Positions 6,309 through 27,284 of a stretch of DNA of 33,664 nt are shown piece by piece. The stretch is from Deltaproteobacteria bacterium (lineage in GTDB: Bacteria; Desulfobacterota; Desulfomonilia; Desulfomonilales; Desulfomonilaceae): contig VGSG01000045.1 of the NCBI GenBank assembly GCA_016875095.1, forward strand, positions 1-33,664, written 5' to 3'. The notes beneath the pieces were generated by a model. It was not told the origin of the DNA. It made no database searches and worked only from the letters and a program-made list of their open reading frames with translations. Position numbers and translations under genes: made by a program. The stretch's first letter is position 1. Every line of letters starts with the position of its first letter.

Positions 6309-6527
6309 TCACTCGTTCTTCTTGTGACCGGACATCTCCAGGAGCTGTCGAAGGCTCTGCGCGAGCAGATAAGAGAACCCCAAGAATACCAGCCCTCGAA
6401 CTATGTTTAACTGCTCGTAGAGCGCGCCTTCGAGACTCGCATGGTAGAGATAGTAGCCCATGAGGAACATTCCGCCCGCGCACAGCGCCGCCTTCAAAAG
6501 AGGATTGAGAAAGTTTCTTTCTGCCAT
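6309..6527 (-). CDS. Small two-helix membrane protein of unknown function
   Basis: From ATG at 6527 this is a 72-residue protein with two hydrophobic segments: LLKAALCAGGMFLMGYYLYH (about residues 9-28) and a second around IVRGLVFLGFSYLLAQSL (about 42-59). It ends in a charged tail (MSGHKKNE). The amphipathic link and the clean hydrophobic pattern argue for a real gene, but the start has no strong ribosome site. An upstream in-frame start at 6584 would add 19 residues of less protein-like sequence. I do not recognise the family. It stands alone between two gene-poor stretches, and a T-run terminator follows downstream. Confidence 0.5.
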   Translation of the reverse strand: MAERNFLNPLLKAALCAGGMFLMGYYLYHASLEGALYEQLNIVRGLVFLGFSYLLAQSLRQLLEMSGHKKNE

Positions 6528-6617
6528 TGTGTTGTCCGAACTATCTTCGAAGCGGAAAGCGATCCGCCTCCCGAGGATTTGCAACCGGGCGCCGAGTCCA
6601 ATGTGGTCTCTCGGATA

Positions 6618-6629
6618 ACGAGAAATCTC
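6618..6629. repeat. Dyad repeat, copy 1 (ACGAGAAATCTC)
   Basis: Twelve-base element whose core GAGA-AA-TCTC is self-complementary. An identical copy lies 109 bases further on at 6727-6738. Spacing and position upstream of the signalling cluster suggest a protein-binding site. Confidence 0.45.
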
Positions 6630-6723
6630 TCAAGCGGAGCCTGTGCAACTGGACACCCTATGACTATAGCACAGGCGTCTCCGGCGCAAAAGAAACCTGA
6701 AGTCAAGGATCGAAGTCATATCA

Positions 6724-6745
6724 GGAACGAGAAATCTCGAGTTCC
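6724..6745. repeat. Dyad repeat, copy 2, with extended symmetry
   Basis: The second ACGAGAAATCTC (6727-6738) sits in a longer imperfect inverted repeat: GGAAC-GAGA on the left and TCTCG-A-GTTCC on the right, with two central A. The loop is too short for an RNA hairpin, so a DNA-binding dimer site is more likely. Confidence 0.45.
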
Positions 6746-6891
6746 AGGCATTTTGCTGCTCTCGAGCCATGTCCTGGCGGTGCGAGGCGTCAACGCTCCG
6801 CGGGCTGAGTAAGAGCGATTTCTTTGCGGCCGAGCAAGCACAGGTATCCGATGATGGGAATGTTCGATTTCCGCTGGCATCACAGTGGGAA

Positions 6892-6920
6892 TTGATTTTC
6901 TCTTAGAGTGCTGATACAGT
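6892..6920 (+). promoter_or_regulatory. Candidate promoter of the DUF4388/Roadblock/MglA/kinase cluster
   Basis: TTGATT (6892-6897), 17-base spacer, TACAGT (6915-6920). Each hexamer matches four of six consensus bases. It lies about 100 bases before the DUF4388 start and 150 bases after the second dyad repeat. Confidence 0.35.
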
Positions 6921-7022
6921 AAGCCAGAGTAAGCATCTGAGCGTTACGGTATTTTGTCCACCCTCCCCGGAGCGAGTGGCGCATCCTTGACGTCATCTAC
7001 AGTATGCCGGGAGTGGGTCGGA

Positions 7023-7436
7023 ATGCCTTTTAGAGGCCGTTCATGGTTGAAGAAGGGCGCCGCTTGGCGTCTGACGAGCTTACGCGCGCCGGGGAGAGGA
7101 TTTGGGGACGAAGTGGGATCCAGCGGTTTCAGTGGTAGGGTGACCAACACGAGTCTCCATGAAGTGGTCCAACTGATGTGTATAGGCGGCCATACGCGCC
7201 GACTGCGTGTCAGGAGCGGCACACGAAAGGGCGATATATATTTCCGATCGGGGGAAATCGTCCACGCGCAGAACGGCGCTTCCGAAGGTGAAGTGGCTTT
7301 CTATCAAATCCTGTCCTGGGAGACAGGGGCATTTGACTGCGATGAGGAGGCTCCGCAAGTCGAAACGATACGTGAGAGCTGGGAGTTTCTTCTGATGGAG
7401 AGCATGAGACGAGCGGAAAGCCCCACGCCGATGTGA
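7023..7436 (+). CDS. DUF4388 (PatA-N-terminal-like) domain protein, N-terminus uncertain
   Basis: First gene of the signalling cluster, about 137 residues from ATG 7023. The DUF4388 domain fills the C-terminal 100 residues: FSGRVTNTSLHEVVQLMCIG, RLRVRSGTRKGDIYFRSGEI, VHAQNGASEGEVAFYQILSW. This domain is common in gliding and predatory Deltaproteobacteria and often accompanies small GTPases and receivers; its molecular role is unsettled. The N-terminus is doubtful. Residues before the domain are Arg/Gly-rich and unlike protein, whereas the next frame starting at ATG 7043 (GAGG six bases upstream) reads MVEEGRRLASDELTRAGERI and would join the domain if one G of the run at 7104-7107 were removed. 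A GTG at 7113 is another possible start. There are no membrane segments, so the protein is probably cytosolic. Confidence 0.75.
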   Translation: MPFRGRSWLKKGAAWRLTSLRAPGRGFGDEVGSSGFSGRVTNTSLHEVVQLMCIGGHTRRLRVRSGTRKGDIYFRSGEIVHAQNGASEGEVAFYQILSWETGAFDCDEEAPQVETIRESWEFLLMESMRRAESPTPM

Positions 7437-7724
7437 GAGAGGGCCTGCGCGCCGGAACGTCGGCGAGAGGTCCCGTTGCGGGACTTCAGAGTCCTATTGT
7501 GTAGTCCTAATGAAAGGGCTCGGTATGAAGAGCCTTTGGTCGGGTTTACGTATTGGGAGTAAGGGCTTTCCTGATTCGTTGTAGCTCATTGGCTACAGGA
7601 GTTGGTATATTCGGAGGGGCAGGAAGCCGCCGGTGGAGCTGGACGTGCAACCACGTCCGTTGTGCCACGGACTTTTTCGACCTCGCCAGGGATGATCCAC
7701 GGGTAGGCCGGATGGGATGCGACA
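7437..7724 (+). promoter_or_regulatory. Structured leader of the Roadblock-MglA-kinase genes
   Basis: 288 bases without a gene, containing at least four stem-loops in the sense direction: GTCCCG-TTG-CGGGAC (7470-7484); a bulged stem with arms AAAGGGCTC and GAGCCTTT (7513-7537); GGACGTG-CAAC-CACGTCC (7641-7658); and GTCCGT-TGTGCC-ACGGAC followed by five T (7655-7677). The last two share bases 7655-7658 and cannot form together. I saw no match to the c-di-GMP (GEMM) riboswitch or another known riboswitch core. Confidence 0.5.
7655..7677 (+). terminator. Intrinsic terminator in the leader, possibly conditional
   Basis: Perfect 6-bp stem GTCCGT/ACGGAC, 6-base loop, then TTTTT, ending 47 bases before the Roadblock start. 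The overlapping upstream hairpin at 7641-7658 uses GTCC of the left arm and would act as an antiterminator. Confidence 0.55.
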
Positions 7725-8141
7725 ATGGCTGACATCGTTCTGACAAAACAAACCCTCGATGAGGTGGATAGCGTCCTGTCGGAAATGTTGGACCGAAGCG
7801 GGGCGCACACGGCCCTGCTGATTGACAAATCAGGTCAGATTATCAGCTTTCAGGGGAAGATGGATGCGGAAAAAGTGGCCTCCCTGGCCGCCCTCACCGC
7901 GGCGAACTACGGCGCGACCACGGCTATCGCCCGTCTGTTCGGCGAGGAGGAATTCACGTTGCTTTTCCACAAAGGAAAAGAAGAGAACATACACTTCTCA
8001 AATGTGGGCGAAGAATGTCTGATGATCACCATCTTCAACAATAACACTCATCTCGGTCTGGTAAGGCTAGAGGTCAGGAAGGGTCTGGAGAGAATCGAAG
8101 CTACTTTCGCTAAGAACCTTCGCTCGTGGTTCAACTCATAG
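7725..8141 (+). CDS. Roadblock/LC7 domain protein, candidate GTPase regulator (MglB-like)
   Basis: 138-residue cytosolic protein made of one Roadblock/LC7 domain. It has an N-terminal helix (TLDEVDSVLSEMLDRSGAHT), then ALLIDKSGQIISFQGKMDAE and the helix KVASLAALTAANYGATTAIA, with a second sheet strand EECLMITIFNNNTHLGLVRL. In Myxococcus the Roadblock protein MglB is the GTPase-activating partner of the Ras-like polarity switch MglA. Here the next gene, 60 bases downstream, encodes an MglA-like GTPase, so a GAP or scaffold role is likely. The ATG at 7725 is the first of a strong domain start (MADIVLTKQTLDE); the ribosome site is weak. Expression may be gated by the hairpin pair just upstream. 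Confidence 0.88.
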   Translation: MADIVLTKQTLDEVDSVLSEMLDRSGAHTALLIDKSGQIISFQGKMDAEKVASLAALTAANYGATTAIARLFGEEEFTLLFHKGKEENIHFSNVGEECLMITIFNNNTHLGLVRLEVRKGLERIEATFAKNLRSWFNS

Positions 8142-8201
8142 AGACTGTGTCATGGGGATGCGAGATCACGATCCTTCGGCGGAGATAACAGGAACGCCTT
8201 C

Positions 8202-8837
8202 ATGGCAATAATAAGTTTTCGATCGGACGAGATACACTGCAAGATTGTCTACTATGGGCCTGGTCGAGGTGGTAAGACCACGAATCTGATAGCGTTGCAC
8301 AAGGCGCTGGGAAGTCAGGTGCGAGGAGAACTTCTCTCCATAGACACAGCGGGAGACCGCACGTTGTTTTTTGATTTTCTTCCCATGGATCTTGGAGTCA
8401 TTGGGAAGTTCAGGATCAAGATCTCACTTTACACGGTCCCCGGGCAGGTGCGCTACAACGATACGAGAAAACTTGTGTTGAAGGGCGTTGATGGTATTGC
8501 CTTCGTAGCGGACTCTCTGGAAGCGAGACGGCAAAACAATCTGGACAGTTTAAAGAATCTCATCGATAATCTTGCCGACCAGGGAAAGGATCTTTCCACA
8601 TTGCCTTTGGTCGTGCAGTACAATAAGCGTGATTTGGAAGACAGCAAAGTGCCTGTGCTCTCAATCGATGAACTGGAAAGGGACCTCAACAGCCACGGGA
8701 AGTATCCGGCCTTTCCGGCCAGCGCGCTGCGGGGAGAAGGAGTGAGGGAGACCTTCAAGAAGGTCTGCATGATGACCGTGGTTGACGTAAGCACAAGACT
8801 CCTGAAGGACAAGACGCTGCAGGCATCCAGCAAGTGA
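8202..8837 (+). CDS. mglA: MglA-like small Ras-superfamily GTPase
   Basis: 211-residue GTP-binding switch protein, close in length to MglA. The P-loop is GPGRGGKTTN (residues 19-28). The switch I region includes DTAGDRTLFFDFLP, the G3 motif is the MglA-type TVPGQ (78-82) in place of Ras DTAGQ, the G4 motif is NKRD (141-144), and the G5-like SAL is at 174-176. MglA proteins set cell polarity and motility in Myxococcus and have relatives in many non-motile bacteria, so a motility role is not implied by sequence alone. It follows the Roadblock gene and is followed after 28 bases by the CheW-like gene. ATG at 8202 begins the family-typical MAIISFRSDEIHCKIVYYGPG. All nucleotide-binding motifs are intact, so an active GTPase is expected. 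Confidence 0.93.
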   Translation: MAIISFRSDEIHCKIVYYGPGRGGKTTNLIALHKALGSQVRGELLSIDTAGDRTLFFDFLPMDLGVIGKFRIKISLYTVPGQVRYNDTRKLVLKGVDGIAFVADSLEARRQNNLDSLKNLIDNLADQGKDLSTLPLVVQYNKRDLEDSKVPVLSIDELERDLNSHGKYPAFPASALRGEGVRETFKKVCMMTVVDVSTRLLKDKTLQASSK

Positions 8838-8865
8838 CTTGGACAAACGCCTCAGGGGAATAGCC

Positions 8866-10173
8866 GTGGCCGAGAACAAGAAGTTCAAATCGCCGTCGGA
8901 ACTGGGAAGCGCCGTAGGACAGAAGATCGACGAGATTTTTGGCGAGTCCGTGTCGGAAGAGTCCGTTATCATGTCGACTCACCAGCCCGGACCGGCGCAG
9001 AAGTCCACGGCCGTAGCGCAGGACCGAGTTGGATCGACGGACGCGGCATCGAGAGGCGTCCGTGGCCCTATTCCTTCCGGCCCGTCTCCGAAGAGTCCGA
9101 CTCCCAGGCCACGAGGCCCGCAGGCCGCTGGAGCAAACGCTGAGAGGCCCGCATCTCTTGAGCGCCTGATTGACCAGACCGAAGCGCTCGTTCTCGAACT
9201 GGAATGGGAAACAAGCCCAAACGCTACGAACGCATTGGCGTTCAAACTCAAGGAGCTGGAAGCGATTCTTCCTGAAAAGGGTCCGGCTCGAGTTGCCGTG
9301 CAGATGAGTCGGCGCGTATTGGAAGCTTTGAGAAAAGGCGCGCCGCCGCATCCTCGGGTGGCCCAGTTGCTCCAAGGAAGCATTTCAATTGCGAGGCAGA
9401 CTTTGGAATCAGGGGGCAGGCGGCCCGTCGATCCGGCAGTTTTCAATAGCCTCAATGAACAGTATAAGCACATCATGGCCTCGTCAATGGCTCGAGACGC
9501 GAGGGATAGCGGCTCTGGCGCGCCTACCACGGGTGAAGTCCCGCTCGAGCAACTGGTTGGCAACGTAGGCGGCGCTTTGAGCGCTCTTGACGAAGTGACC
9601 CAGCGACTGGCAAAGATCGTCGGCGTTCTTCGGAAAGGGGGCGAGATGTCTCGGGATGAGGTCACTCGAAGATTGAGCACCGTTGAGACACTTCTGGCTC
9701 AGCGAGTAGGGCAGCTTTCCGCGGCCCACCGCCGCCTGGCCGAGATAGGAACAGAGGCCAATCGCGGCCCGCTTCCGGGTCGACTTCCCGACAAGGACCG
9801 TTTCGGTCCCGACGGTCTGCTCTTGATCTCTTGGAGCGGCATTCCGATTGCCGTCCCGTCCTCCTTCGTTTCCGCGCTCTATCCTTTGCCCAAACCGCAG
9901 GCTGCGCAACTGGACGGGAAACAAAGCATCATGCTGGGAAATCGTGAAATTCCGCGGCTCCCCCTGAGGCCTCCCCGCGGGTCCAGACAACAGGAACAGC
10001 CTCCTCCCAGTTGGCTGATCCATCTGGCAATGGGTGGACGGGAATTCTATCTACTGGCGGAGAGGGCCCTAGGCTACCGACGCCTGCCCAAGGGGGTGGA
10101 TATCCAGCGTCAGGGCACTATGCGAATCGGCGCCACCTCGTACACCGTGCTGAACCAAGCGACCATAAGTTAG
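8866..10173 (+). CDS. Unrecognised signalling protein with a divergent CheW-like C-terminus
   Basis: 435 residues from GTG 8866, chosen because AGGGGA lies six bases upstream; a TTG at 8839 would add nine residues without a ribosome site. The first 110 residues are Pro/Ser/Gly-rich and probably disordered. The middle is helical, with a candidate coiled-coil around RRLSTVETLLAQRVGQLSAA. The last 120 residues (from GPDGLLLISWSGIPIAVPSS) follow the strand pattern of a CheW fold: a first strand and 'VSALYPLP', then NREIPRLPLR, WLIHLAMGGREFYLLAERAL and a final GTMRIGATSYTVLN. This CheW assignment is my pattern reading and is not proven. It sits between the GTPase and kinase genes, 20 bases before the kinase start, so it may be an adaptor linking them. 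Confidence 0.7.
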   Translation: MAENKKFKSPSELGSAVGQKIDEIFGESVSEESVIMSTHQPGPAQKSTAVAQDRVGSTDAASRGVRGPIPSGPSPKSPTPRPRGPQAAGANAERPASLERLIDQTEALVLELEWETSPNATNALAFKLKELEAILPEKGPARVAVQMSRRVLEALRKGAPPHPRVAQLLQGSISIARQTLESGGRRPVDPAVFNSLNEQYKHIMASSMARDARDSGSGAPTTGEVPLEQLVGNVGGALSALDEVTQRLAKIVGVLRKGGEMSRDEVTRRLSTVETLLAQRVGQLSAAHRRLAEIGTEANRGPLPGRLPDKDRFGPDGLLLISWSGIPIAVPSSFVSALYPLPKPQAAQLDGKQSIMLGNREIPRLPLRPPRGSRQQEQPPPSWLIHLAMGGREFYLLAERALGYRRLPKGVDIQRQGTMRIGATSYTVLNQATIS

Positions 10174-10192
10174 TCGCATCCACCGGGAATTA

Positions 10193-11980
10193 ATGTCGGC
10201 CGACCAATCCAGAGAAACCCCTTCGAGTCAGAAACCGCACTCGACGTTCAATCCGATCAAAATCGGCCGTTACTATCTCGTGGACCGGATAGCGCGCGGC
10301 GGGATGTCGGAGGTATTCCTCGCCAAGACGGTGGGGTTTGGCGGCTTTCAGAAACCGCTTGTCATCAAGAAGTTGCTTTCTGAACTCTCCTCCTTGCCCC
10401 GTTATGTGAAACGATTTGTCAACGAAGCCCAGACACTCGCCCGGCTGAATCACCCAAACATCGTTCAAGTGATCGACGCGGGCTTCATCGGAGGTCAGCG
10501 CTACATAGCGCTGGAATACGTGGAAGGCCGCAGCGCGGCGCACATGCTGTCGAAGGCTAAGAAAAAAGGAAAATTGCCTTCGCCGGAATTTGCGGTGCGC
10601 CTTGTGCTCCAGGTGGCCTGCGGCCTGGCTTATGCGCATCGCACGGAGCGCCTTCGGGGTGAGAGCCGGTCCCTGGTTCATCAGGACATTAATTCGTTCA
10701 ACGTGATGGTCTCTTATTCGGGCGATGTGAAGATCATCGACTTCGGAATAGCCCGCATGCTTCCGGCCCACAGCGATGACGAGGAGCTGCCCGTCGCAGG
10801 AAAACTGCTTTATTTCTCTCCGGAACAGCTCCAGGGGAAGCCGGTGGATTTAAGGGTCGATGTCTATGGGATCGGCATGCTCCTGCACGAATTGCTCACC
10901 GGCGAGCGGCTTTTCGAGCATGGCAACAACGTCGGCGAGACCATGAAGATGATCCTCGAATCGGACGTGGCGGGCAAGATCCTAGCCAACGAGCGACTCC
11001 ACCCCGATCTCAAACCGATTCTGATAAAGGCCACCGCGCTGGAGCCGGAAGCCCGCTACGGCAGCATGGAAGAGATCATCGATGAACTCTTGTCGGTGGC
11101 CAAGAGATGTGATTTCGAACTGGAAGGACGAGTTCATGCCGAGTACATGAGGGAAGTCTTCGAAAGGGAAATCCAGGTCGATCGTCGGCGCATGCAGCGG
11201 CTGTGGGACTGGACCCCGTCAGACCAGACGGCTGTCGAGGCCGACGCCCCGGCCGCGCATGATGACACAACCGGCGGCCCGCACGACCTTCTGGCCAGGT
11301 TGTCCGGCTTTCTCGCCCAAGATCAGGGTCAGAAAGGCCGGCCCTCGGCCGCGCCGAAGAAAGGGTTTCCTAGACTTCTTCGGGTCCCTGCGGGACGCAC
11401 CATATTCCGGCAGGGCGATCCCAGTCTTTTCTTGTATGTTATTCAGAGCGGCAAAGTCAGCCTCTCCCTGCGGACAGGTCGCAACGTCCGAACCGTGGCT
11501 GTGTTGGGGGAGGGCGATATGTTTGGAGAAACCGCGATCTTAACCGAGGGCCGGAGGCCGCTGACGGCGAAAGCCAGAGAAAAGAGCGTCCTGTATTGTC
11601 TTGACAGAGGCGCTTTCCTGGGGCTTCTGGACGAGAATATCAGTAGGGAAGTCTTCTCACGTCTGGTGGGAAGGATCAAACGCCTGGTGACGGCTCTGGC
11701 GAGCGCTCTGCTGGACGATCCTATTGCCCGTCTCCTGCACGCTCTGCTGACGCTTCAGAGTCAGGCGAGCCTCCAGGGTGGTTCGGTGGTGGATTTTGCG
11801 GAACTCAAGGAGTTGACTCGACTCCCGGACGATGAACAGCTCGTCAAATATCTCACGAAGCTTGAAGCGCTCGACGCTGTGCTGATCCGGAACACTTCAG
11901 TGGTCATCAAGGACTACGAAAAGGTCGAGAACATTTTCCACGTGCTCGTCGGAGCAGGCAAGCTTAGTCTTCGATTATAG
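10193..11980 (+). CDS. Ser/Thr protein kinase fused to a cyclic-nucleotide-binding domain and helical tail
   Basis: 595-residue cytosolic multidomain protein; I see no membrane segment. The kinase domain spans about residues 24-305: IARGGMSEVFLA (Gly-rich loop), K59 in LVIKK, E78 of helix C, DFG at 183-185 and SPE at 209-211. The catalytic loop reads HQD-INSFN (163-170): the aspartate and Asn are kept, but the usual Arg of HRD is Gln and the loop Lys is missing. A linker (about 340-392) leads to a cNMP-binding domain (about 395-480) with GEGDMFGETAILTEGRRPLT, the phosphate-binding cassette form of CRP-like proteins. The last 100 residues resemble the helical/winged-helix part of such regulators, but I see no certain DNA-binding helix. 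ATG 10193 has GGGA five bases upstream. It is the last gene of the tight cluster and probably its output. Confidence 0.9.
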   Translation: MSADQSRETPSSQKPHSTFNPIKIGRYYLVDRIARGGMSEVFLAKTVGFGGFQKPLVIKKLLSELSSLPRYVKRFVNEAQTLARLNHPNIVQVIDAGFIGGQRYIALEYVEGRSAAHMLSKAKKKGKLPSPEFAVRLVLQVACGLAYAHRTERLRGESRSLVHQDINSFNVMVSYSGDVKIIDFGIARMLPAHSDDEELPVAGKLLYFSPEQLQGKPVDLRVDVYGIGMLLHELLTGERLFEHGNNVGETMKMILESDVAGKILANERLHPDLKPILIKATALEPEARYGSMEEIIDELLSVAKRCDFELEGRVHAEYMREVFEREIQVDRRRMQRLWDWTPSDQTAVEADAPAAHDDTTGGPHDLLARLSGFLAQDQGQKGRPSAAPKKGFPRLLRVPAGRTIFRQGDPSLFLYVIQSGKVSLSLRTGRNVRTVAVLGEGDMFGETAILTEGRRPLTAKAREKSVLYCLDRGAFLGLLDENISREVFSRLVGRIKRLVTALASALLDDPIARLLHALLTLQSQASLQGGSVVDFAELKELTRLPDDEQLVKYLTKLEALDAVLIRNTSVVIKDYEKVENIFHVLVGAGKLSLRL

Positions 11981-12049
11981 CCCGGTGGCCCATTTATTTG
12001 CCGAGCGCCCTGCCACGACTCGCAGCGACGCCTGGATGAGGCAAAAAGA

Positions 12050-12778
12050 ATGAGAGTAATCGTCATCAATGCAGCGCCGAGGATGGAAACCGGCAATACT
12101 CAGATGATCCTGACCCCCTTTTTGGTGGGAATGCGAGATCAGGGAACTCGGGTGGATCTGGCGGTGCTGGGACGCAAGAAGATCAAGCCCTGCATCGGGT
12201 GCTTCACGTGCTATGCCCAGACACCGGGCGTCTGCATTCATCAAGATGATATGTCTGCTCTGAACGAGCGGATCCGCGCTTCGGACGCGTTGGTCCTCGC
12301 CACTCCCCTCTACCTGGACGGCATGACTAATCTCGCGAAAGCGTTTGTTGACCGGCTTGTGACCTTTCTGGATCCGCACTTCGTCGACTGCGACGGCGGT
12401 CTGAGACATCCGCTGAGGTGGCGTTTCCCCAAGAAGCTGTTCCTTGTGTCGATCTGCGGTTACCCCGGTCTTCGCAACTTTGACCCGATCCTGTTGCATA
12501 TGGAGAGAATCGCGATCAACCTTCACACCGAATTTGTAGGCGCGCTTCTCCGGCCGGCGGTCTTCTCCTGTCTCCTGACGAAAAAATATCCCGAGCGAGT
12601 CAAAGGTGTGATGGACGCAGTCAGGACCGCGGGAGAAGAGTTTGCTCGGAAAGGGAAAGTCTCACGCGGGGTCTTCGAGGCCGCGGCCGCGGACATTTGC
12701 GCCGTAGAGGAACTGAGGGAAATCGCCAACGCCTACTGGGACCGTGAACTGGACAGACATGGTGACCGGCCCGCCTAG
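12050..12778 (+). CDS. NAD(P)H-dependent FMN reductase / iron-sulfur flavoprotein-like protein
   Basis: 242-residue flavodoxin-fold oxidoreductase. The N-terminus MRVIVINAAPRMETGNTQMI is the FMN-phosphate loop of the family, and ATPLYLDGMTNLAKAFVDRL is the second FMN-contact region. Four cysteines, C48-xx-C51-xx-C54-x7-C62 (KPCIGCFTCYAQTPGVC), match the compact CX2CX2CX4-7C motif that binds [4Fe-4S] in iron-sulfur flavoproteins of anaerobes. This suggests an electron carrier or oxygen/peroxide-related reductase, though some family members keep these Cys without a proven cluster. It starts 69 bases after the kinase stop (ATG 12050, GAGG nine bases upstream) and may be read through from the signalling cluster. 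The physiological partner is unknown. Confidence 0.85.
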   Translation: MRVIVINAAPRMETGNTQMILTPFLVGMRDQGTRVDLAVLGRKKIKPCIGCFTCYAQTPGVCIHQDDMSALNERIRASDALVLATPLYLDGMTNLAKAFVDRLVTFLDPHFVDCDGGLRHPLRWRFPKKLFLVSICGYPGLRNFDPILLHMERIAINLHTEFVGALLRPAVFSCLLTKKYPERVKGVMDAVRTAGEEFARKGKVSRGVFEAAAADICAVEELREIANAYWDRELDRHGDRPA

Positions 12779-12909
12779 GTCTCGAAACTACTCTAAGATC
12801 CATAAGCCTCAGAAGGACACAGATCCGTTTGATGTCCTCGACTTCAGCCCGACCACTTATTACTGACGCAGGGCTCACCCGGCCACGTTTAACCGGTCAC
12901 TTGGAGAGC

Positions 12910-14994
12910 ATGTGCATACGTTCCGGTAAGTCCCCCCACGCGGGCACGGCGCATATCCTGGGCATCCTCGTGATGATGTTCCTGTTCTTTCCTGGGAGAC
13001 TGTTTGCAGGCGGAGTGCTGCACGTCTTTCCACCCCAGCTTGGGACGGATGTCTTCCCTGTCGCCCGTCTGGCGGTCCACACGTCCCGAGCCCTGATCAC
13101 GGTCCATGACTCCTCCGTCGAATATCGAATCGATCAGACCTTCTTTAATGACAACCAGTTTCCCCTGAAGGGCATTTATTTACTGCCCGTTGAAGACGAG
13201 GTTTCCGCGGTCGCGGAAGTTCAGGTTGACGGAGTCACGTCGCCTTTCCGGATAACTGGGCCTGATGCCTTCTTTGGGAGACTCAAAGAGCTTTCGCGCG
13301 AGATGAAGGACTCGTCGCTATTGGGGCTCGCGGGGAAACGTCTGTTGGTGGTGGACCCGATCACTCTAGGAATCTCGCAGCAGAGGACCGTCCGCATCCG
13401 ATACGCAAAAAAGATTTCTGCGTCCGACGATGTGCTTGAAATCGCCCTGCCGTTGGACGGCGAGCGTTTTTCCCTTGGGCCCGTGGGCTTGCTGAATATC
13501 CGCGTCCGTTTCGCCCTGTCGCGACCTGTGCGAACGGTGATATCTCCGTCTCACCATATAGTGATTCATCGGGAGGCGACTCACAGATGCCTTGTGCAGA
13601 TGGAAGCCCGTGAGCAGCCCGTACGTGACGACTTTCGGCTGCTCGCAACCTTTTCGGGTGATCAGCTTAACGTAAGGCTTTTTACCCACCGGCAGCCGAA
13701 TCGGGAAGGTTTCTTTATGGCGCTCATCGAATCTCCCGCTATGCCGGAAAGGGCCAGCGAGCCGGAAAAAGATGTGGTCTTCCTTCTCGACACCTCGGGC
13801 AGCTTGGGTGACAAGGCGTTCGGCATGGCCAAGGATGCCGTGGTCTACTGTCTAGACCGGCTCCGCCCGCGGGACAGGTTCAACGTAATCACGACGGGAA
13901 CGCGGGTGTCGGCTCTGACCAAGGGCCTTGTGGCGGCCACGGAGGCTAATATCTCCGATGCCGTCCGATTTGTGGATACACTGCCCTCCGGAGGTGGAAC
14001 AGACCTCTATGGCGGCTTGATGAGCGCTATGGATCAGTTCACGGGTCGCAAGAGGCCCAGCTTCATCATGCTGACGGGGGACGGGAAGGCCACAGTGGGT
14101 ATCACAGACCCCGCCAGTATCCTCGACGATGTGAAGCGCCAAAATAAAGTAGACGCGAGGATTTTCGCGCTTGCCTTTGGGACCCACGCCGAGATTGCCT
14201 TATTGGACAAACTCACGGTGGCAGCCAAAGGCAAGCTGTTCCACGTGGGCGCGCGCGAAGCTTTCGACAGTCAACTCCAAAATTTCTTCGCCGCGATTTC
14301 CAGACCTCCTATTTCGGCCATTTCGATGCAGTTTCAGGAAGTGAAAACCGAGCAAGTCATTCCCGTTCGGATTCCTGATCCGTTTCGGGAAGAGACGGTC
14401 TTTGTGTTCGGCCGATATTCGACGAGCAAGGAGACGCAGTCCCAGGTTCGTCTTACGGCAAAGACCGCCGGCGGCGCCGTTGTTACGGTAGGCCGGCCTG
14501 CAACTTTTCCTCTCGCCGCTCAGGCACGGCCTTACATTGCGAGCCTCTGGGGCATGCGCAAACTTGCAGAACTCCTTGAACAGTATCATCTCACAGGGAG
14601 CGAGGCGCCGGTCGCGGATGAGATCGGGTTGCTGGCAAAGCAGTTCGGTCTCAGGAACCCCCTGCTTCCCACCAGCGCCGGCGCGGATAGGCCCGGACCG
14701 CCATATTTGAAGAGCGGTAGCCTCTTGTGGACTCTCAAGACTTCACTGGTTCCCGCTGATATCTATTCCGGCTCTTATCGGGTTATTGGCGGAAAAGTAT
14801 TTCGATCCGAGCAAGGGCAGTGGATCGATACGTCGTACGACCCGACGATGAAGACCATCGCCGTGGATTTCCTGGGGGACGTATATTTCGAGCTCCTGCG
14901 GAAGGAACCTCATCTCGGCCCCTGGCTCGTTCTCGGTCCCCGGGTGACTCTTGTGCGCGGAGAAGAAGCGCTCTCAGTAAGACAAGAGCCTTGA
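12910..14994 (+). CDS. Exported VIT and von Willebrand factor A domain protein
   Basis: 694 residues from ATG 12910, chosen because GGAG lies four bases upstream and a signal peptide follows directly (MCIRSGKSPHAG, then a hydrophobic core ILGILVMMFLFF, ending near GRLFAGG). An earlier TTG/ATG pair at 12829-12834 would bury that signal. After the signal comes a VIT domain (about residues 35-165; for example SVEYRIDQTFFNDNQFPLKG and IYLLPVEDEVSAVAEVQVDG), as in inter-alpha-trypsin inhibitor heavy chains. The VWA domain follows (about 288-460) with an intact metal-ion site: DTSGS at 294-298 and later GGGTDLYGG. The C-terminal 200 residues are not assigned. Such proteins bind other proteins at the cell surface or in the periplasm. 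It lies 131 bases after the reductase gene and converges with the helicase gene, only 14 bases away. Confidence 0.88.
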   Translation: MCIRSGKSPHAGTAHILGILVMMFLFFPGRLFAGGVLHVFPPQLGTDVFPVARLAVHTSRALITVHDSSVEYRIDQTFFNDNQFPLKGIYLLPVEDEVSAVAEVQVDGVTSPFRITGPDAFFGRLKELSREMKDSSLLGLAGKRLLVVDPITLGISQQRTVRIRYAKKISASDDVLEIALPLDGERFSLGPVGLLNIRVRFALSRPVRTVISPSHHIVIHREATHRCLVQMEAREQPVRDDFRLLATFSGDQLNVRLFTHRQPNREGFFMALIESPAMPERASEPEKDVVFLLDTSGSLGDKAFGMAKDAVVYCLDRLRPRDRFNVITTGTRVSALTKGLVAATEANISDAVRFVDTLPSGGGTDLYGGLMSAMDQFTGRKRPSFIMLTGDGKATVGITDPASILDDVKRQNKVDARIFALAFGTHAEIALLDKLTVAAKGKLFHVGAREAFDSQLQNFFAAISRPPISAISMQFQEVKTEQVIPVRIPDPFREETVFVFGRYSTSKETQSQVRLTAKTAGGAVVTVGRPATFPLAAQARPYIASLWGMRKLAELLEQYHLTGSEAPVADEIGLLAKQFGLRNPLLPTSAGADRPGPPYLKSGSLLWTLKTSLVPADIYSGSYRVIGGKVFRSEQGQWIDTSYDPTMKTIAVDFLGDVYFELLRKEPHLGPWLVLGPRVTLVRGEEALSVRQEP

Positions 14995-15008
14995 GACCTT
15001 CGGTTGTT

Positions 15009-17093
15009 CTAGACAAGTGGGAGTCTCAGCAGGAGGGGTAAGGTTGCCCTGGCTGTTTGTGCGAGGAGGGGCTTTTCGCGTTCCAGGGAGAGGAGTTGCC
15101 GCACGTGATCGGCAGTTCGAAGAAGGAGCATGGCTAAGTCCCCCTCGTCCGCTCTCACGTGTCGGGTGAGTTCCGTCCATTCCACACCTTGGCCCCAGAG
15201 GTACGCGGCCGCGGCGGGCCAGAACATAACGGAGGGCACGCTAAAGCCCTTAGAGTACAGGTACTGAGCCCTCGGCTTCAGCTCGCGCAGCATTCGGCGC
15301 CACTTCTTCCAGAGCGGCCTTGTCTCGTCCCAAAGCGCTTTGCTCATGAGAACTTCTCTCTCCTTGTCGAGGACAAATGGCGCCATGAGGCCGGCCAGCT
15401 CTTGGGGTTCGAGGTCCACGAATGTCCCGCGCCTGATCAGCTCCGCAATGAGCAGCGGGTGGTCAAGCCTCAGTTGAGCAGCCCAGCGTCCGTCATCCGC
15501 GGGAGTTCCCTTTTCATCAACATAATCCAGCTCTTGCAACACAGCTAGATGCCTCTGGAACTCCTTCTGAAGCCGCTGGTGGACTTTGCGGGCCTCGCGA
15601 GGATTCTCATGAAACGCGGCGAATGAGAGCCCCATCAGCTCTTTAATTCCTGCGGGATCATGCGAAAGGAGCAGATTCAGCGCCATAGAAAAATTGACCA
15701 TGATTCTCGATTCCAATGGTTCCGGAGGTGAGCGTAACAGTTCGGCCACCAGCTCCAAGTTCATAAACTTTCCGGGAACGATGAGCGTGAAACCTGCTTT
15801 ATCCATGCCTCGCCGACCTGCTCGGCCGGTCATCTGGTGGAGGTCGGTGGCGGTCATGTCAACGAACGTAGCCCCGTCGAATCGGTCGCTTTGTACGATG
15901 ACCACGGTCCGAGCTGGGAAATTCACCCCCGCGGCCACGGTCGAAGTGGAGAAAATGACCTCCAGATGCCCAAGAGCCATCATTCGTTCGACAAACAGGC
16001 GCCAAGCGGGCAATTGGCCTGCGTGATGAGATCCTGCCCGACACTGGATGAGACGCCCGAGCTGCCGTTGCGTCAGCAACTCCGGATAGTTCTGAGTCTC
16101 TGCTTCAATCGCGTCCTGGAACGCCCCATCGTCCGCCGCGAGCGGCGAAAGTTGAAGCTCCCGGAGCGCCTTATCGCAGTCGGCGCGGGACTTAAGAAAA
16201 ACAATGGCAGGCAGTAGTTGGAACTCCCTGAGAGTAGAGACGATGCCGTTCACGTCCGGCGCGACCCTCTCGCCGAACTTGCGGCTCTGTTTCTCAGCCC
16301 GCGCATAGCCCGCCACCGTGTGGAAGAGCCGATCGCCTTTGAAGAAGGGAGTGAGTTCTCCCGTCGTAGAGCGGAAGAGCACATACAGAGGGACGGGCCG
16401 AACTTCGTCCAGAACCACGCGACATGCCGCTCTGCGGATATGGCTCAGCCAGGCAGCGACCTGCTCCGCATTGGAGATGGTCGCTGACAGCAGCAAAATC
16501 CTCACCCGGTCAGGGAGATAGATGAGCACTTCTTCCCAGACCACTCCTCGATCAGGGTCTCCGAGATAGTGGGCCTCGTCCAGGATTACCAGGTCCACAG
16601 GCAGACGCTCGCCGGAATGCATCGCGTCATAAAGCTGGTTGCGGAGGATTTCGGTTGTTCCCACGATAACGGGGGCGTCGGGGTTTTCCTTGCGATCACC
16701 CGTGAGAATTCCCACGTTCTCGGCGCCGAACTCCACGCCGAATTCCTGATGTTTCGCATTGGAAAGCGCCTTGAGCGGCGTTGCGTACCACACTCTCGCT
16801 CCGTGCTTGAGGTATTCCCTTGCGGCTTGAAGAGCGATCCAAGTCTTGCCCGACCCCGTGGGTGCGCTTACGAGCACGTCCGTCGTAAGGATGGCCTTAC
16901 TCGCTTCTTGTTGGAATGGGTCGGGCCTAAACGGAGACGGCTCGGGTTTGCCTATATTCGCCAACATTTCCCGCGCCGCGGGATGAATGCGGGTCGGTCT
17001 CGCGACAGGCGCCACTTGCTTCCTTTTGTTCCGAGGAAATCGATCTTTCTTTCTTGGCGGCTTCTTGGATTTCGTTACGTGATATGCTCTCAT
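15009..17093 (-). CDS. Ski2-like DEAH-box superfamily 2 helicase
   Basis: 694 residues from ATG 17093. It is an ATP-dependent helicase of the Ski2/Mtr4/Hel308-like group, probably acting on RNA. A basic N-terminal tail (KSKKPPRKKDRFPRNKRK) precedes Walker A APTGSGKT (residues 77-84), ATPLKALSNAK (motif Ia), LDEAHYLGD (motif II, DEAH at 172-175), LLSATISN (motif III), FSTSTVAAGVNFPARTVVI (motif V) and HQMTGRAGRRGMDKAG (motif VI). All motifs look intact. The C-terminal 200 residues are helical, as in the exosome-type helicases, without a recognisable extra domain. I chose ATG 17093 because a promoter predicted at 17158-17186 would start transcription near 17150, leaving a normal leader with GAAG before the ATG; a TTG at 17138 lacks this. 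Confidence 0.93.
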   Translation of the reverse strand: MRAYHVTKSKKPPRKKDRFPRNKRKQVAPVARPTRIHPAAREMLANIGKPEPSPFRPDPFQQEASKAILTTDVLVSAPTGSGKTWIALQAAREYLKHGARVWYATPLKALSNAKHQEFGVEFGAENVGILTGDRKENPDAPVIVGTTEILRNQLYDAMHSGERLPVDLVILDEAHYLGDPDRGVVWEEVLIYLPDRVRILLLSATISNAEQVAAWLSHIRRAACRVVLDEVRPVPLYVLFRSTTGELTPFFKGDRLFHTVAGYARAEKQSRKFGERVAPDVNGIVSTLREFQLLPAIVFLKSRADCDKALRELQLSPLAADDGAFQDAIEAETQNYPELLTQRQLGRLIQCRAGSHHAGQLPAWRLFVERMMALGHLEVIFSTSTVAAGVNFPARTVVIVQSDRFDGATFVDMTATDLHQMTGRAGRRGMDKAGFTLIVPGKFMNLELVAELLRSPPEPLESRIMVNFSMALNLLLSHDPAGIKELMGLSFAAFHENPREARKVHQRLQKEFQRHLAVLQELDYVDEKGTPADDGRWAAQLRLDHPLLIAELIRRGTFVDLEPQELAGLMAPFVLDKEREVLMSKALWDETRPLWKKWRRMLRELKPRAQYLYSKGFSVPSVMFWPAAAAYLWGQGVEWTELTRHVRADEGDLAMLLLRTADHVRQLLSLEREKPLLAQTARATLPLLLRLPLV

Positions 17094-17157
17094 TAATTCT
17101 TCAGTATTTCGTTCAGCGCCGCGCGAATTCGCAATCAAACCGGTTGCGGTCGCCCCT

Positions 17158-17186
17158 GGTATAGCTCAGAAGCATTCATCTCACAA
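17158..17186 (-). promoter_or_regulatory. Candidate promoter of the helicase gene
   Basis: Minus strand TTGTGA (17181-17186), 17-base spacer, TATACC (17158-17163). Each box matches four of six consensus bases. Confidence 0.4.
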
Positions 17187-17378
17187 GGGCGCGGGCCGGG
17201 AAGGTTGCGGACGCGGGGGAAGCGCTCTCATCGTATCTCGCAAAATGTCCCGCGCCCCAGAGCGTTATGGGTTTCATTGACATAAAGGATGAAGCTGAAA
17301 TTCAAGAGATGGTATGAATCGGCTTTGTCAGGGTTAGGCGGTCACGACGGGAGGCTTCTAGGACGGCCCGCCTCGCGC

Positions 17379-17651
17379 TTATTCGTAGAGTTCGTCATCC
17401 CGGCGGGCCGCTTTTGGTTCCCCTCTGGTATAGATGGTCTTGTAAAGACCCGAAAAACCGGGGAGATCGAGGCAAGAGGAACAGTCTTGGCCTGGCTCGA
17501 CCACTCCGCCGGTTTCTATCCGCACTTCCAACCCCATAGATTCGTAGGCTTCCTTCATTTCCGACACACGAGGTTCTTCCGCGGTAAACCGTCGGACCCA
17601 ACCTTGGGCCAGCAGCTCCTCGTGACGCCTCAAAAGGGCCTCTCTGTCCAT
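17379..17651 (-). CDS. Small hypothetical protein with a CxxC pair
   Basis: 90-residue soluble protein with a clear start: ATG 17651 with GAGAGG six bases upstream. The N-terminal half is helical and charged (MDREALLRRHEELLAQGWVR, then EMKEAYESMGLEVRIETG). The second half holds a single Cys pair (C57, C60 in GQDCSSCLDLPGFSGLYKTI). I do not recognise a named family. The pattern looks like a conserved small protein that binds a metal or forms a disulfide. It lies 71 bases downstream of the zinc-ribbon-like gene on the same strand, and both end before the helicase gene's upstream region, so the two are probably co-transcribed. Confidence 0.65.
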   Translation of the reverse strand: MDREALLRRHEELLAQGWVRRFTAEEPRVSEMKEAYESMGLEVRIETGGVVEPGQDCSSCLDLPGFSGLYKTIYTRGEPKAARRDDELYE

Positions 17652-18403: not shown

Positions 18404-19258
18404 TCACGGTCCAATGCTTCCAGGGAGGGCAAGGCGCTTGACTACGATCATGGTCAGGTACGCGGCCCCCGCGATGAGGATCGTGGTCGCTCCCACAGGA
18501 AGGTCCGGCCCGTAACTGACGGCCAGTCCCGCGCTCGTGAAGCCGAAACAGAGCACGCAACTCAATACCATCATGCGAGCCAGCGTCTTGGAAAAGAACT
18601 CCGCAATTGCGGTAGGTAGAGTCAGGAGCGCTATCACCATGACGAGGCCGACAACCATGGCCAGCACCACCGTGGTGAGCGCGGTGAGACACAAGAGCAG
18701 CAGATAGAAGAAATCGACCTTAAGCCCACGGAGCGCCGCGAATTCGCCGTCAAAACAGACAGCGACGAATTGGTTATAGAAAGCCAACCCCGCGGCCACC
18801 ACCACCACATCCAAACCTACAAGAAACCAGAGTTCCCTGGTGGAGACCATGAGGATGTTCCCGAAGAGATAGCTCATCAGATCGGTATTGTAGCCCGGGG
18901 TCCGGGAGATGAAGAGGACCCCGACCGCCATTCCCACGGCCCAAAGCGCGCCGATGACCGTGTCTTCCCGCTGTTTTGCCCGGAGGCTCACCACCCCTAT
19001 GATCAACGCGGAGAGGATCGCCGCCGCAACAGCGCCGTGTAAAGGCGTCACCGCCTCCCAATGCCCGTTCTTTTGCAGGAACAGGGCGAGCCCCATGCCG
19101 CCGAGCACCGAGTGGGCAATTCCCCCCGCGATATACGTGATTCGCTTGACCAAGACAAATGCCCCGATAACGCCGCATGCCACACTGGCCAAAGCGCCGG
19201 TGAGCAGGGCGTACTGGAGGAACAGGTGCTGCTGAAGGTCGATCAGGAATGCGCACAT
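18404..19258 (-). CDS. znuB: Zinc/manganese ABC transporter permease
   Basis: 284-residue integral membrane protein of the ABC-3 permease family, which forms the channel of a high-affinity Zn or Mn importer. Multiple hydrophobic segments run through the sequence. Family motifs include RITYIAGGIAHSVLGGMGLA near residues 39-58, the central HGAVAAAILSALIIGVVSL, and VVGLVMVIALLTLPTAIAEF near the C-terminal third. The length is normal. Its ATG at 19258 lies within the end of the ATPase gene (16-base overlap), so the two are coupled. It is the last gene of the regulator-znuA-znuC-znuB operon. Zn is favoured over Mn because the solute-binding protein carries a His-rich loop. Confidence 0.92.
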   Translation of the reverse strand: MCAFLIDLQQHLFLQYALLTGALASVACGVIGAFVLVKRITYIAGGIAHSVLGGMGLALFLQKNGHWEAVTPLHGAVAAAILSALIIGVVSLRAKQREDTVIGALWAVGMAVGVLFISRTPGYNTDLMSYLFGNILMVSTRELWFLVGLDVVVVAAGLAFYNQFVAVCFDGEFAALRGLKVDFFYLLLLCLTALTTVVLAMVVGLVMVIALLTLPTAIAEFFSKTLARMMVLSCVLCFGFTSAGLAVSYGPDLPVGATTILIAGAAYLTMIVVKRLALPGSIGP

Positions 19259-20082
19259 GGGCCGGAAGCTCCCGAGTTGGTCTTATCATGCCTCACCATC
19301 TTCAGGGACGACCCGTAAAGCCTCGTGATCGTCTCCCCTACGACCTCGCTGGTTGGGTGCGCTACTACGGTCCGTTTCACGCACAACACCCTGTTCACAT
19401 AGCGCGATACAAACGCGAAATCATGCGAGACAAGGATTATGGTCAAATGCTCGGCGAGCGAGTGAAGAAGCTCGGATAGCTCGGTCTCCACGGCAAGATC
19501 CAGACCGGCGGTCGGCTCGTCAAGGAGTAGCAGTTCCGGTCGAGTGGCCAGGGCCCGCGCGATGAGCACCCGCTGCCGTTGACCGCCCGACAACGCCGAG
19601 AAATGGCTCTTGCGGCGCTCCCACATGTCCATCTGTCTCAGCGCGTTGCGAGCAATCTCCTTGTCGACTCGCGTGTACGGCCCGAAAGATCTCGAATGCC
19701 CCAGGCGCCCCATGAGCACCACACTCATCACATCCACGGGGAACTGGGGATCCAGATGCGCGTGCTGCGGCATATATCCGATTCGACGACGCGCGTGCTC
19801 GGGTCGGTCCCCAAAGACGCGAACGCTGCCGGCCTGAGGATGGATCAGACCCAGCATGAGCTTGAGCAGGGTGGTCTTCCCGCTCCCGTTCGGCCCCACG
19901 ATCGAGACGAACTCGCGCTCCTTCACGGAGAAGTTTACCGCCTCAAGGACCGGGTGGCGATTGAACGTGAAGGACACATCCTCGAATTCTATGACGGGCC
20001 TTTCAGGCAATGTGGGCTTCCTTATTCTCCTCGACCGGGCCGCGCTGAGGTTCATCGAAAAGCTCAGTTGGTGAGACACCAC
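19243..20082 (-). CDS. znuC: Zinc ABC transporter ATP-binding protein
   Basis: 279-residue ATPase that powers metal import. Walker A is GPNGSGKTT, the signature is LSGGQRQRVLIARAL, Walker B with D-loop is LLLLDEPTAGLD, and the switch is VSHDF; the Q-loop lies in GYMPQHAHLDPQ. An N-terminal extension of about 25 residues (rich in Arg and Ser) precedes the domain at PVIEFEDVSFTF. GTG 20082 has GGGAG seven bases upstream, in the 18-base gap after znuA; a second possible start is ATG 20055. The C-terminus runs 16 bases into znuB. The last residues (NSGASGPCAHS) contain a Cys and a His, but I give this no weight. Confidence 0.93.
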   Translation of the reverse strand: MVSHQLSFSMNLSAARSRRIRKPTLPERPVIEFEDVSFTFNRHPVLEAVNFSVKEREFVSIVGPNGSGKTTLLKLMLGLIHPQAGSVRVFGDRPEHARRRIGYMPQHAHLDPQFPVDVMSVVLMGRLGHSRSFGPYTRVDKEIARNALRQMDMWERRKSHFSALSGGQRQRVLIARALATRPELLLLDEPTAGLDLAVETELSELLHSLAEHLTIILVSHDFAFVSRYVNRVLCVKRTVVAHPTSEVVGETITRLYGSSLKMVRHDKTNSGASGPCAHS

Positions 20083-20100
20083 TGGGCGTCTCCCGTGCTA

Positions 20101-21141
20101 CTATTTCTGTTTGCTGAGCGCGCCCTCGACTTTCGACGCCATTTCCCTCAGGTTCTGAATGTAGTCCCTCGCCACGGGATCCATGGATACCACAGCGCCT
20201 TCGATCGCTGCGGCAATGGTATGCGCGTTCTTCGTATCAAACTGGGGCTGCACAAAAATGACTTTGACCCCTTTCTTCTTCGCCTTGTTGATCAGGCCGG
20301 CCAATTGCTTGGCGCTGGGTTCCTTGCCCCCGGTCTCCACAGCCACCTGTTTCAATCCATAGCGGTCTGCGAAGTACCCGTACGCAGGATGGAAAACAAA
20401 TATCTCCCGACCCTTGACCCCGACCAGTGCCCGAGCGATTTCTTCGTGCAGCGCATCCAAATCCTGCCTAAGGGCTTCCAGATTTGAACGGTACTCGTCA
20501 CAGCGCCGAGCATCGATCGTGCACAGGGTTTCCGCAATTGTCCAGGCCTGCCGCTTCACTAAAATCGGATCGAGCCAGGTGTGCGGATCAAGTTCTTCCG
20601 TGTGGGCTTCCTCGTCTTTATCGTGAGACGATTTCTTCCCATCCACCGGTTTGCGGGGTTTGGGCCGGCCGTGTCGATCACTTGTCTTGCCGTGCCCATG
20701 GTCGTGGGGCTCAACCATCTCTCTGAGTTCGATTCCCTTGGTGGTGTCAACCACCAGCAAGCTCTTGGCCGCGGAAGAGATCTTCGGGACGAGCCCGGTT
20801 TCAAAGGGAAGGCCGATTCGAAAAAACACCTGCGCTTGGGCCAACAAAGACATTTGTCTTGGGGTCGGCTCATAGCTTTCGTGAGACTGGCCCGGGCCGG
20901 CCAGAACCTGGACGTCCACATGTCGCCCACCCACGCGTTCCACGAAGTACGCCTGGGGAAGAATGCTTACGAAAACCTTGATCTTCTCCGAGGCTTGTGC
21001 GTTTGCGCCGAATACCAGGATAGCGACAACGGCAATCCCAACAGCCTGGCCAATGCGTTTCGAGGCGTCTTTCAGCGCCCCGGACCGGCGCGCCCAGCGC
21101 GGAATGCCCTGGTCGCCAGGTTTACGAACGATCCCGGCCAT
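20101..21141 (-). CDS. znuA: Zinc ABC transporter substrate-binding protein
   Basis: 346-residue exported metal-binding protein from ATG 21141 (GGAG eight bases upstream). The N-terminus is a basic stretch followed by a hydrophobic segment AVGIAVVAILVFGANAQAS, a signal peptide or anchor. The cluster A-I family features are visible: VFVSILPQAYFVERVGG, GPGQSHESYEPTPRQM (first His ligand region), then a His-rich loop (EPHDHGHGKTSDRHG through KKSSHDKDEEAHTEE), which is typical of zinc-specific ZnuA. The next ligand region is LDPHTWLDP, and HPAYGYFADRYGL carries the third His. The start codon lies inside the upstream regulator gene (20-base overlap), so expression is coupled to it. Confidence 0.93.
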   Translation of the reverse strand: MAGIVRKPGDQGIPRWARRSGALKDASKRIGQAVGIAVVAILVFGANAQASEKIKVFVSILPQAYFVERVGGRHVDVQVLAGPGQSHESYEPTPRQMSLLAQAQVFFRIGLPFETGLVPKISSAAKSLLVVDTTKGIELREMVEPHDHGHGKTSDRHGRPKPRKPVDGKKSSHDKDEEAHTEELDPHTWLDPILVKRQAWTIAETLCTIDARRCDEYRSNLEALRQDLDALHEEIARALVGVKGREIFVFHPAYGYFADRYGLKQVAVETGGKEPSAKQLAGLINKAKKKGVKVIFVQPQFDTKNAHTIAAAIEGAVVSMDPVARDYIQNLREMASKVEGALSKQK

Positions 21142-21412
21142 GAACTGACTCCCTGTGGGACGAGTCGCAGACCAGATGAAACGCGTGGCACTCTTGACAT
21201 TCGGCCACCGCGTGTTCCTTGGCAAATTGCTCCCAGTGCCGCCTTTGGTTCGGCATAAGTATGCCCGCTCCCATGCAGAGCGGGCAAATACTCTCCAGCG
21301 CGGACAGCACCGCGGTCCGAATGAATTCGGATCGATTCGGTATACCTTTCATTGCCTGTTTGAGTGATTCGGGAACCTTGAAGGTTATGATCTCCACTTT
21401 CTCAGGCGGCAT
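21122..21412 (-). CDS. Ribbon-helix-helix regulator with a Cys/His metal-binding tail
   Basis: 96-residue protein that leads the zinc uptake operon. Residues 5-41 (EIITFKVPESLKQAMKGIPN, then RSEFIRTAVLSALE) match the CopG/NikR-type ribbon-helix-helix DNA-binding fold. The rest carries C43-xx-C46, H59, H67, C72-xx-C75, H76, H79 and C82, an arrangement suited to zinc (CPLC and CQEC knuckles). It lacks the ACT-like nickel domain of NikR, so it is not a standard NikR. ATG 21412 has GAGAGG about eight bases upstream. The operon position, the overlap with znuA and a repeat-bearing promoter directly upstream suggest an autoregulated zinc sensor. That role is inference; classical zinc uptake regulators are Fur-type (Zur). 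Confidence 0.8.
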   Translation of the reverse strand: MPPEKVEIITFKVPESLKQAMKGIPNRSEFIRTAVLSALESICPLCMGAGILMPNQRRHWEQFAKEHAVAECQECHAFHLVCDSSHRESVHGRDRS

Positions 21413-25595: not shown

Positions 25596-25641
25596 TTTAT
25601 TTTTCCCTCCGCGTAAGAGCCGAACCAGTGCTGTGACGCGG

Positions 25642-25671
25642 ACCATAGCACGTTTTCCGAAAATGTGGCAA
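25642..25671 (-). promoter_or_regulatory. Promoter of the large outer-membrane protein gene
   Basis: Minus strand TTGCCA (25666-25671), 18-base spacer, TATGGT (25642-25647) with an upstream TG (extended -10). The -10 hexamer is the same as at the UDP-xylose synthase promoter. Confidence 0.5.
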
Positions 25672-25861
25672 GACAAAACCGCATTTTTGACACGGGGCCC
25701 TGGGGCAGTCTATTCAGACAACCCTCCAGTAAGAATCGACCCTTGAAACACTCGGCAAACACTGAGAGGGAGGCTCCGCTCTGGTTCCGAGAATTATTGC
25801 CTTGCGTCGCGCAGGGACGCGAGGCGTCGAATGCCTCAGATGGTTAGCCTTAGCGACAATA

Positions 25862-27104: not shown

Positions 27105-27118
27105 GGTCCCTCCCAATA

Positions 27119-27132
27119 AGCGTGCGCACGCT
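27119..27132. repeat. 14-bp perfect palindrome in the leader of the outer-membrane protein gene
   Basis: AGCGTGC-GCACGCT is perfect over 14 bases and lies 14 bases upstream of the ATG at 27104, next to the ribosome site. It could be a repressor site or a structured RNA element. Confidence 0.45.
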
Positions 27133-27284
27133 CGCATGAAATAGGAGAAAGGCTCGCGGTTCCTCATCTCCTGAAAGCAAAGTTCTTCGCGTTCATCATC
27201 AGGCGGTAAGACGCTGAAGGCCACCTGTCTCTCCTTTTGCGTCTCTGATCTGACGAACCCGCGACCCATTGCCGGCCGCCACCG

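Follow-up and report, generated by a model that had tools for sequence, protein, structure and literature searches.

In Myxococcus xanthus the MglA/MglB switch is known to act on type IV pili. Here we analyse a five-gene block built around a switch of this type, found in a 33,664-nucleotide stretch from a Deltaproteobacteria bacterium of the sulfate-reducer family Desulfomonilaceae (VGSG01000045.1, the complete contig G000:C45 of the 4.7 Mb, 202-contig assembly GCA_016875095.1; hereafter the window). At positions 7023-11980 of its plus strand the window encodes, in order, a DUF4388 protein (DUF4388 being the PATAN domain), an MglB-type Roadblock protein, an MglA-type small GTPase, a CheA-like adaptor predicted to lack a kinase domain, and a Hanks-type Ser/Thr kinase with a CRP-like C-terminus. 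With the MglA/MglB systems of M. xanthus and Thermus the block shares a GTPase carrying the MglA motifs, a Roadblock partner and the adjacency of the two genes. In Myxococcus the chemosensory input, Frz, is separate and catalytic, whereas the Desulfomonilaceae block itself includes a kinase-less CheA-like adaptor and a Ser/Thr kinase. Myxococcus mglA also lies at a distance from the genes of its signalling partners (PMC4316618).

Several elements of this arrangement have precedents. PATAN genes occur near MglB genes and Group 1 or 5 MglA genes according to PMC4316618 (citing Makarova 2006), which describes the neighbourhoods of Group 1 MglA genes as otherwise varying widely; its accessible text names no CheA-like adaptor or Ser/Thr kinase as a conserved partner. 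Cyanobacterial PATAN domains bind the PilB motor, as cited in PMC10519157. Conservons, the actinobacterial G protein systems, likewise unite in one operon the genes of a kinase, a Roadblock protein, a GTPase of the MglA family and a further protein (PMC13343842); they use a histidine kinase and CvnC, whereas the block has a Ser/Thr kinase with a CRP-like module, DUF4388 and a pseudo-CheA, and Pfam detected no histidine kinase and no CvnA- or CvnC-type domain among its genes. For the adaptor itself, FimL of Pseudomonas aeruginosa (taken with ChpA, CyaB and Vfr) offers a likeness by description: it is a CheA-related, HPt-like protein, has glutamine at its phospho-sites and functions in type IV piliation and cAMP signalling (PMC3019171, PMC10519157). 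Like the adaptor, FimL is without usable phospho-histidines (PMC3019171); it differs in being described as two HPt-like domains and in working without MglA. A literature search reaching few subscription papers found no description of a kinase-less CheA adjoining MglA. The block had first been pointed out in a note made from the sequence alone (the original prediction), whose view that no described system has this exact set holds for the literature searched, except that PATAN beside MglA/MglB had already been reported (PMC4316618).

Results

Conservation of gene order

The adaptor protein was searched for in 60 genomes, all genome searches being made within the phylum Desulfobacterota, and was matched in eight, all Desulfomonilaceae and representing seven genera including that of the window. 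The order DUF4388-Roadblock-GTPase-adaptor-kinase was identical in 8/8 of these genomes. Rare adjacency of the homologues, the outcome that the original prediction had named as telling against it, was thus not what was found. One scan of contig records returned Desulfomonilaceae and Desulfomonile records only, and the closest clusters among the records scanned were metagenome-assembled genomes of these groups.

The five open reading frames lie at 7023-7436, 7725-8141, 8202-8837, 8866-10173 and 10193-11980, and their coordinates agreed with the five same-strand genes originally proposed; Pfam confirmed the DUF4388, Roadblock, kinase and cyclic-nucleotide domains. Intergenic distances of 60 (Roadblock-GTPase), 28 (GTPase-adaptor) and 19 bases (adaptor-kinase) were also correct, given an adaptor GTG start at 8866 that is kept in 8/8 loci. 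Across the loci the GTPase-adaptor gap spans 22-31 bases and the adaptor-kinase gap -4 to 23. Identity to the window proteins ranges from 36 to 84 % overall, being highest for the Roadblock protein (77-84 %) and the GTPase (76-82 %), lower for the DUF4388 protein (47-60 %) and the kinase (43-47 %), and lowest for the adaptor (36-43 %). Two loci (L022 and L024) have upstream genes in common with the window, and L024 also its downstream helicase, so these are not fully independent of it; at the remaining loci the flanking genes of the window were not found within the stretch read. The shared five-gene order is far beyond chance.

The leader gene (7023-7436, plus strand) encodes a 137-residue DUF4388 (PATAN-type) protein (Pfam DUF4388, 3e-18) and stands first in all eight loci. 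It is separated from the Roadblock gene by 288 bases in the window and by 141-383 bases in the orthologs. Because this gap contains a terminator-like hairpin followed by a T-run (7655-7672, plus strand; detected by pattern scan alone, which is no evidence of function), the DUF4388 gene may form a separate transcription unit. Comparison across loci revealed no conserved element in the intergenic region 3′ of the gene.

The MglA/MglB pair

The GTPase (8202-8837, plus strand; 211 residues) gave a weak Pfam Arf/Ras match, while its profile aligned over residues 1-193 with the solved structures of MglA (3e-61). The P-loop GKTT, R53, T78, PGQ82 and NKRD are conserved; the intrinsic arginine finger (R53), Thr78 and the catalytic Gln82 align with those of MglA and are invariant in 8/8 orthologs. 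The 138-residue Roadblock protein (7725-8141, plus strand; Robl_LC7, 6e-12) has MglB chains as its best matches in the PDB (1e-26), and its gene adjoins the GTPase gene in 8/8 loci. Judged by sequence, the two are a canonical, ordinary MglA/MglB pair, in agreement with the GTPase switch and Roadblock partner of the original prediction, and the Roadblock protein is the predicted regulator or GTPase-activating protein (GAP) of its partner.

A CheA-like adaptor predicted to lack a kinase domain

The 435-residue adaptor (8866-10173, plus strand) had no match in Pfam or NCBIfam. When its profile was compared with PDB sequences, the sole match was a chemoreceptor coiled coil (0.0017), which was taken as chance. 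In an AlphaFold2 model built from 8 sequences (mean pLDDT 66.6, for the most part 70-89 where folded), an N-terminal helix leads through a disordered linker into a bundle of five helices (residues 94-214), after which come a hairpin of two helices (227-298) and a beta domain (317-428). Foldseek placed CheW and CheA P5 on top (E 1e-4). VIA-align matched the beta domain (9814-10149) to CheA P5/CheW (Z 10.9), and the best match of the bundle was CheA P1 (Z 13.6 over 122 residues). Helical bundles may reach such a Z by chance; it was used only jointly with sequence evidence, and because it was not decisive by itself a sequence test of the bundle was run.

A profile built from 28 pseudo-P1 segments of the phylum (A7) also caught genuine CheA proteins, within the HPt domain and with values from 1e-6 to 1e-3; in the six that were checked, Pfam confirmed Hpt, HATPase_c and CheW. 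Profile-profile alignment of 36 pseudo-P1 with 30 true HPt domains gave 96.5 % probability and a pairwise E of 9.4e-10 over 107 columns. The phospho-histidine column holds histidine in 30/30 true HPt domains (with the next lysine also in 30/30), as against 2/36 pseudo-P1 domains; the window protein has lysine there, and its pseudo-P1 domain (residues 88-212; 9127-9501) has no HxxKG motif. Among the 38 adaptor family members, Pfam matched CheW in nine (best 2e-13) and HATPase_c in none, and the model leaves no room for a P4 domain. Alignment of the whole adaptor with complete CheA alignments by hhalign was weak (probability <10 %), in contrast to the strong domain-level comparison made with the broader family. 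The hairpin (9544-9759; predicted helices at 227-256 and 263-298, pLDDT ~70) occupies the place of CheA P3, a likeness of position alone, with no sequence match to P3.

Taken together, the sequence comparisons and the model indicate a CheA-like P1-hairpin-P5 build that is without the P4 ATPase and has lost the phospho-histidine. The original prediction of a possible CheW-fold adaptor was right about the fold and incomplete about the protein. A simple CheW is ruled out by the P1-homologous bundle and the hairpin, and an active CheA by the missing P4 and phospho-histidine.

A short amphipathic motif precedes the first pseudo-P1 domain in 30/33 testable adaptors (500 shuffles gave a mean of 1.0 and a maximum of 4), a contrast that overstates its strength, since the pattern was written after the sequences had been seen and the sequences are related. 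In the window this N-terminal motif, SPSELGSAVGQKIDEIFG, lies at 8890-8943 (plus strand) and reads ELGSAVGQKIDEIF; sister adaptors carry the form EIxxAVDxLFV (EIEAAVDKLFV and similar). Several adaptor proteins contain the motif two to five times, and with a stricter pattern 20/25 matches in the surrounding DNA fall inside adaptors. Very long adaptors occur at L108 (1232 residues) and L106 (802 residues), with tandem pseudo-P1 domains; that of L108 has a long linker with about five repeats of an LDxFF-type motif.

Linkage of the adaptor to MglA across the phylum

A pseudo-P1 profile was run over 395 Desulfobacterota genomes (threshold E<1e-6), with seeds picked without regard to adjacency, except for L037, which came from a GTPase search. 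The profile found 98 places, 85 of them lying, at a median distance of 296 bp, downstream of a same-strand MglA-type GTPase gene, a count inflated by kinship among the genomes. What follows the adaptor gene differs between loci. At L095 it is followed by a PAS histidine kinase, an NtrC-type regulator, PilM, PilN and a secretin; at L096 PilM comes directly after it, and at L104 and L105 a PilB-type ATPase with an MshEN domain. Histidine kinases follow at L100 and L102, and a TPR-Ser/Thr kinase at L098 and L101, which belong to two other families. DUF4388 genes lie upstream of several sister adaptor loci, one with a receiver domain. Full-length PilM is encoded in 7/7 sampled genomes bearing the cluster and is absent from the good clusterless assemblies G004, G006 and G011.

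The kinase and its CRP-like module

The 595-residue kinase (10193-11980, plus strand; Pkinase 2e-34, cNMP_binding 1e-21) keeps the catalytic Lys, Glu, Asp, Asn and DFG invariant in 8/8 orthologs, with HRD reading HQD in all eight. Fold comparison of its model listed kinase domains only, so the C-terminal part was examined by sequence. Positions 7-194 of a 211-position profile of this part could be aligned with CRP/FNR regulators, through both the cyclic-nucleotide (cNMP) domain and the winged helix, and the C-terminus is accordingly a whole CRP-like module of cNMP domain, C-helix and winged helix. The phosphate-cassette arginine is kept in 8/8 sequences and the glutamate in 6/8, and the residues after the arginine differ from the usual R-S/T-A. 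Binding of a cyclic nucleotide is uncertain in at least two orthologs because the cassette glutamate is lost; of the kinase with its own cyclic-nucleotide domain that had been proposed, the fold stands, and in some orthologs the ligand is doubtful.

Further MglA loci, cyclases and neighbouring genes

The genome of the window carries a second DUF4388-Roadblock-MglA-pseudo-CheA set (L026; G000:C53:12000-30094, 9269-17513), after which comes a gene for an FHA-GAF-nucleotide cyclase. Judging from the gene positions, a cyclase lies ~3 kb beyond this second GTPase, on its downstream side, in 6/6 genomes checked (G000, G001, G003, G005, G007 and G008). The pairing of a cyclase in this module with a cNMP-domain kinase in the first hints at a single circuit. 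Such a neighbour is less telling because the genome holds nine cyclase genes; all 18 sampled genomes carry a cyclase, and cyclase presence does not track the cluster. A third DUF4388-Roadblock-GTPase locus (L025; G000:C8:29000-48900, 6414-11317) has a second DUF4388 and a second Roadblock gene downstream, and no pseudo-P1 domain was found there.

Synteny extends past the five genes first described. An NADPH-dependent FMN reductase/flavodoxin-fold gene (12050-12778, plus strand; FMN_red 5e-13) comes next after the kinase in seven of the eight loci and was not found there at L018 (G001). A gene for a VIT/VWA-domain protein with a hydrophobic N-terminal stretch (12829-14994, plus strand; VWA_3 5e-16) is the last conserved gene, following the reductase in five of the six other reductase-bearing loci; the exception, L022, is close to a contig end.

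Elsewhere in the window are ZnuABC-type metal uptake genes (ABC-3 permease, ATPase and ZnuA; 18404-21225, minus strand), a gene for a PAS-GGDEF diguanylate cyclase (22445-23353, plus strand) that lies several kb away from the block, long open reading frames of 595 and 398 codons without a Pfam match at 1e-5 (23889-25676 and 26073-27269, both minus strand) and a Choloylglycine hydrolase family gene (30790-31893, minus strand). No RNA family and no tRNA was found in the whole window.

Discussion

The original observation of a linked block was right and is stronger than stated; its most interesting part is the adaptor with its phylum-wide link to MglA. The gene order, the domain homologies, the loss of catalytic parts and the linkage of sister modules to pilus genes are established. 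The best reading, not demonstrated, is that the adaptor is a scaffold effector coupling the switch to a client. MglB would set the GTP state of MglA, and MglA-GTP would recruit or unlock the CheA-derived adaptor, perhaps via its N-terminal motif or pseudo-P1 bundle. With no P4 and no phospho-histidine the adaptor would be unable to phosphorylate and would act as a scaffold, its CheW/P5 end docking the client. In many Desulfobacterota the probable client is the motor of the type IV pilus or the proteins that regulate it, and DUF4388/PATAN may link the switch to that motor. In Desulfomonilaceae a dedicated Ser/Thr kinase would have been added, with a CRP-like C-terminus that may read a cyclic nucleotide or a protein partner. 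We infer the binding events, their GTP dependence, the control of the kinase, cyclic-nucleotide binding and the pilus output in this family. FimL, CyaB and the CRP homolog Vfr may offer a parallel to the cyclase and cNMP-domain kinase, as a lead only (PMC3019171).

For the block as a whole, we judge the chances to be evenly balanced that it is a lineage-specific version of an MglA/pseudo-CheA module controlling type IV pili. Several points weigh against this. The pilus linkage belongs to the sister modules, and a Pfam scan found no pilus gene in the window. The co-occurrence with PilM comes from a small sample (p ~0.045, phylogeny ignored), and the less complete clusterless assemblies G002 and G009 carry PilM or a piece of it. 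The adaptor model is of moderate confidence, and its P3-like hairpin is without sequence support. Of the polarity or development switch originally envisaged, polarity is supported only indirectly, through the pilus neighbours of sister modules, and development not at all.

The lack of a pilus gene in the window would also fit a pathway of gene expression or stress in place of motility, in which the kinase is gated by the GTPase together with the adaptor, cAMP or cGMP is sensed by the CRP-like module, and the redox and envelope outputs are the flavin reductase and the VIT/VWA protein. The last two genes do lie inside the conserved block, the CRP architecture of the kinase is complete, and the second MglA/pseudo-CheA locus has its cyclase nearby in every genome checked. 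However, several other families show adaptors of this type in linkage with pilus genes, the block is missing from three well-assembled relatives without PilM, and nine cyclase genes weaken the argument from a cyclase neighbour; we regard such a pathway as unlikely, though a serious contender. The long gap and hairpin after the DUF4388 gene, together with adaptors that have no such kinase in other families, raise a different alternative, in which the block is made up of two or three independent units: DUF4388 by itself, a core of MglB, MglA and adaptor, and a co-inherited kinase receiving no GTPase signal. This we consider improbable, as adaptor and kinase genes are nearly contiguous or overlapping at all loci, their order was maintained while both proteins diverged to ~40-45 % identity, and other Ser/Thr kinases occupy the same position in two other families. 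A conservon-like system with the Ser/Thr kinase replacing the CvnA histidine kinase would follow the same logic, a single operon for kinase, Roadblock protein, small GTPase and an additional protein (PMC4316618, PMC13343842). It is very improbable: the GTPase keeps the Myxococcus-type Arg and Gln, whereas conservon GTPases are described as without an arginine finger (PMC4316618), and the block has no CvnA- or CvnC-type gene.

Returning to the scaffold effector, we tentatively put forward, as a proposal that may well prove too broad, that Desulfobacterota possess a widespread, undescribed class in which a dead CheA relative is a direct MglA effector and a swappable scaffold for pilus motors, histidine kinases, nucleotide cyclases or, in this block, a Ser/Thr kinase with a CRP-like receptor. 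Outside Myxococcus, little is settled about the way MglA-type signals reach the pilus machinery, and the adaptor, maintained next to MglA across many genera, is a concrete candidate for the effector. Such a role would show that chemotaxis parts have been reused as GTPase effectors, in parallel to Pseudomonas FimL. If the model is true, small-GTPase, chemotaxis-derived and Ser/Thr kinase signalling would be coupled within one operon, and the Desulfomonilaceae block ties a Ras-like switch of bacteria genetically to a Ser/Thr kinase.

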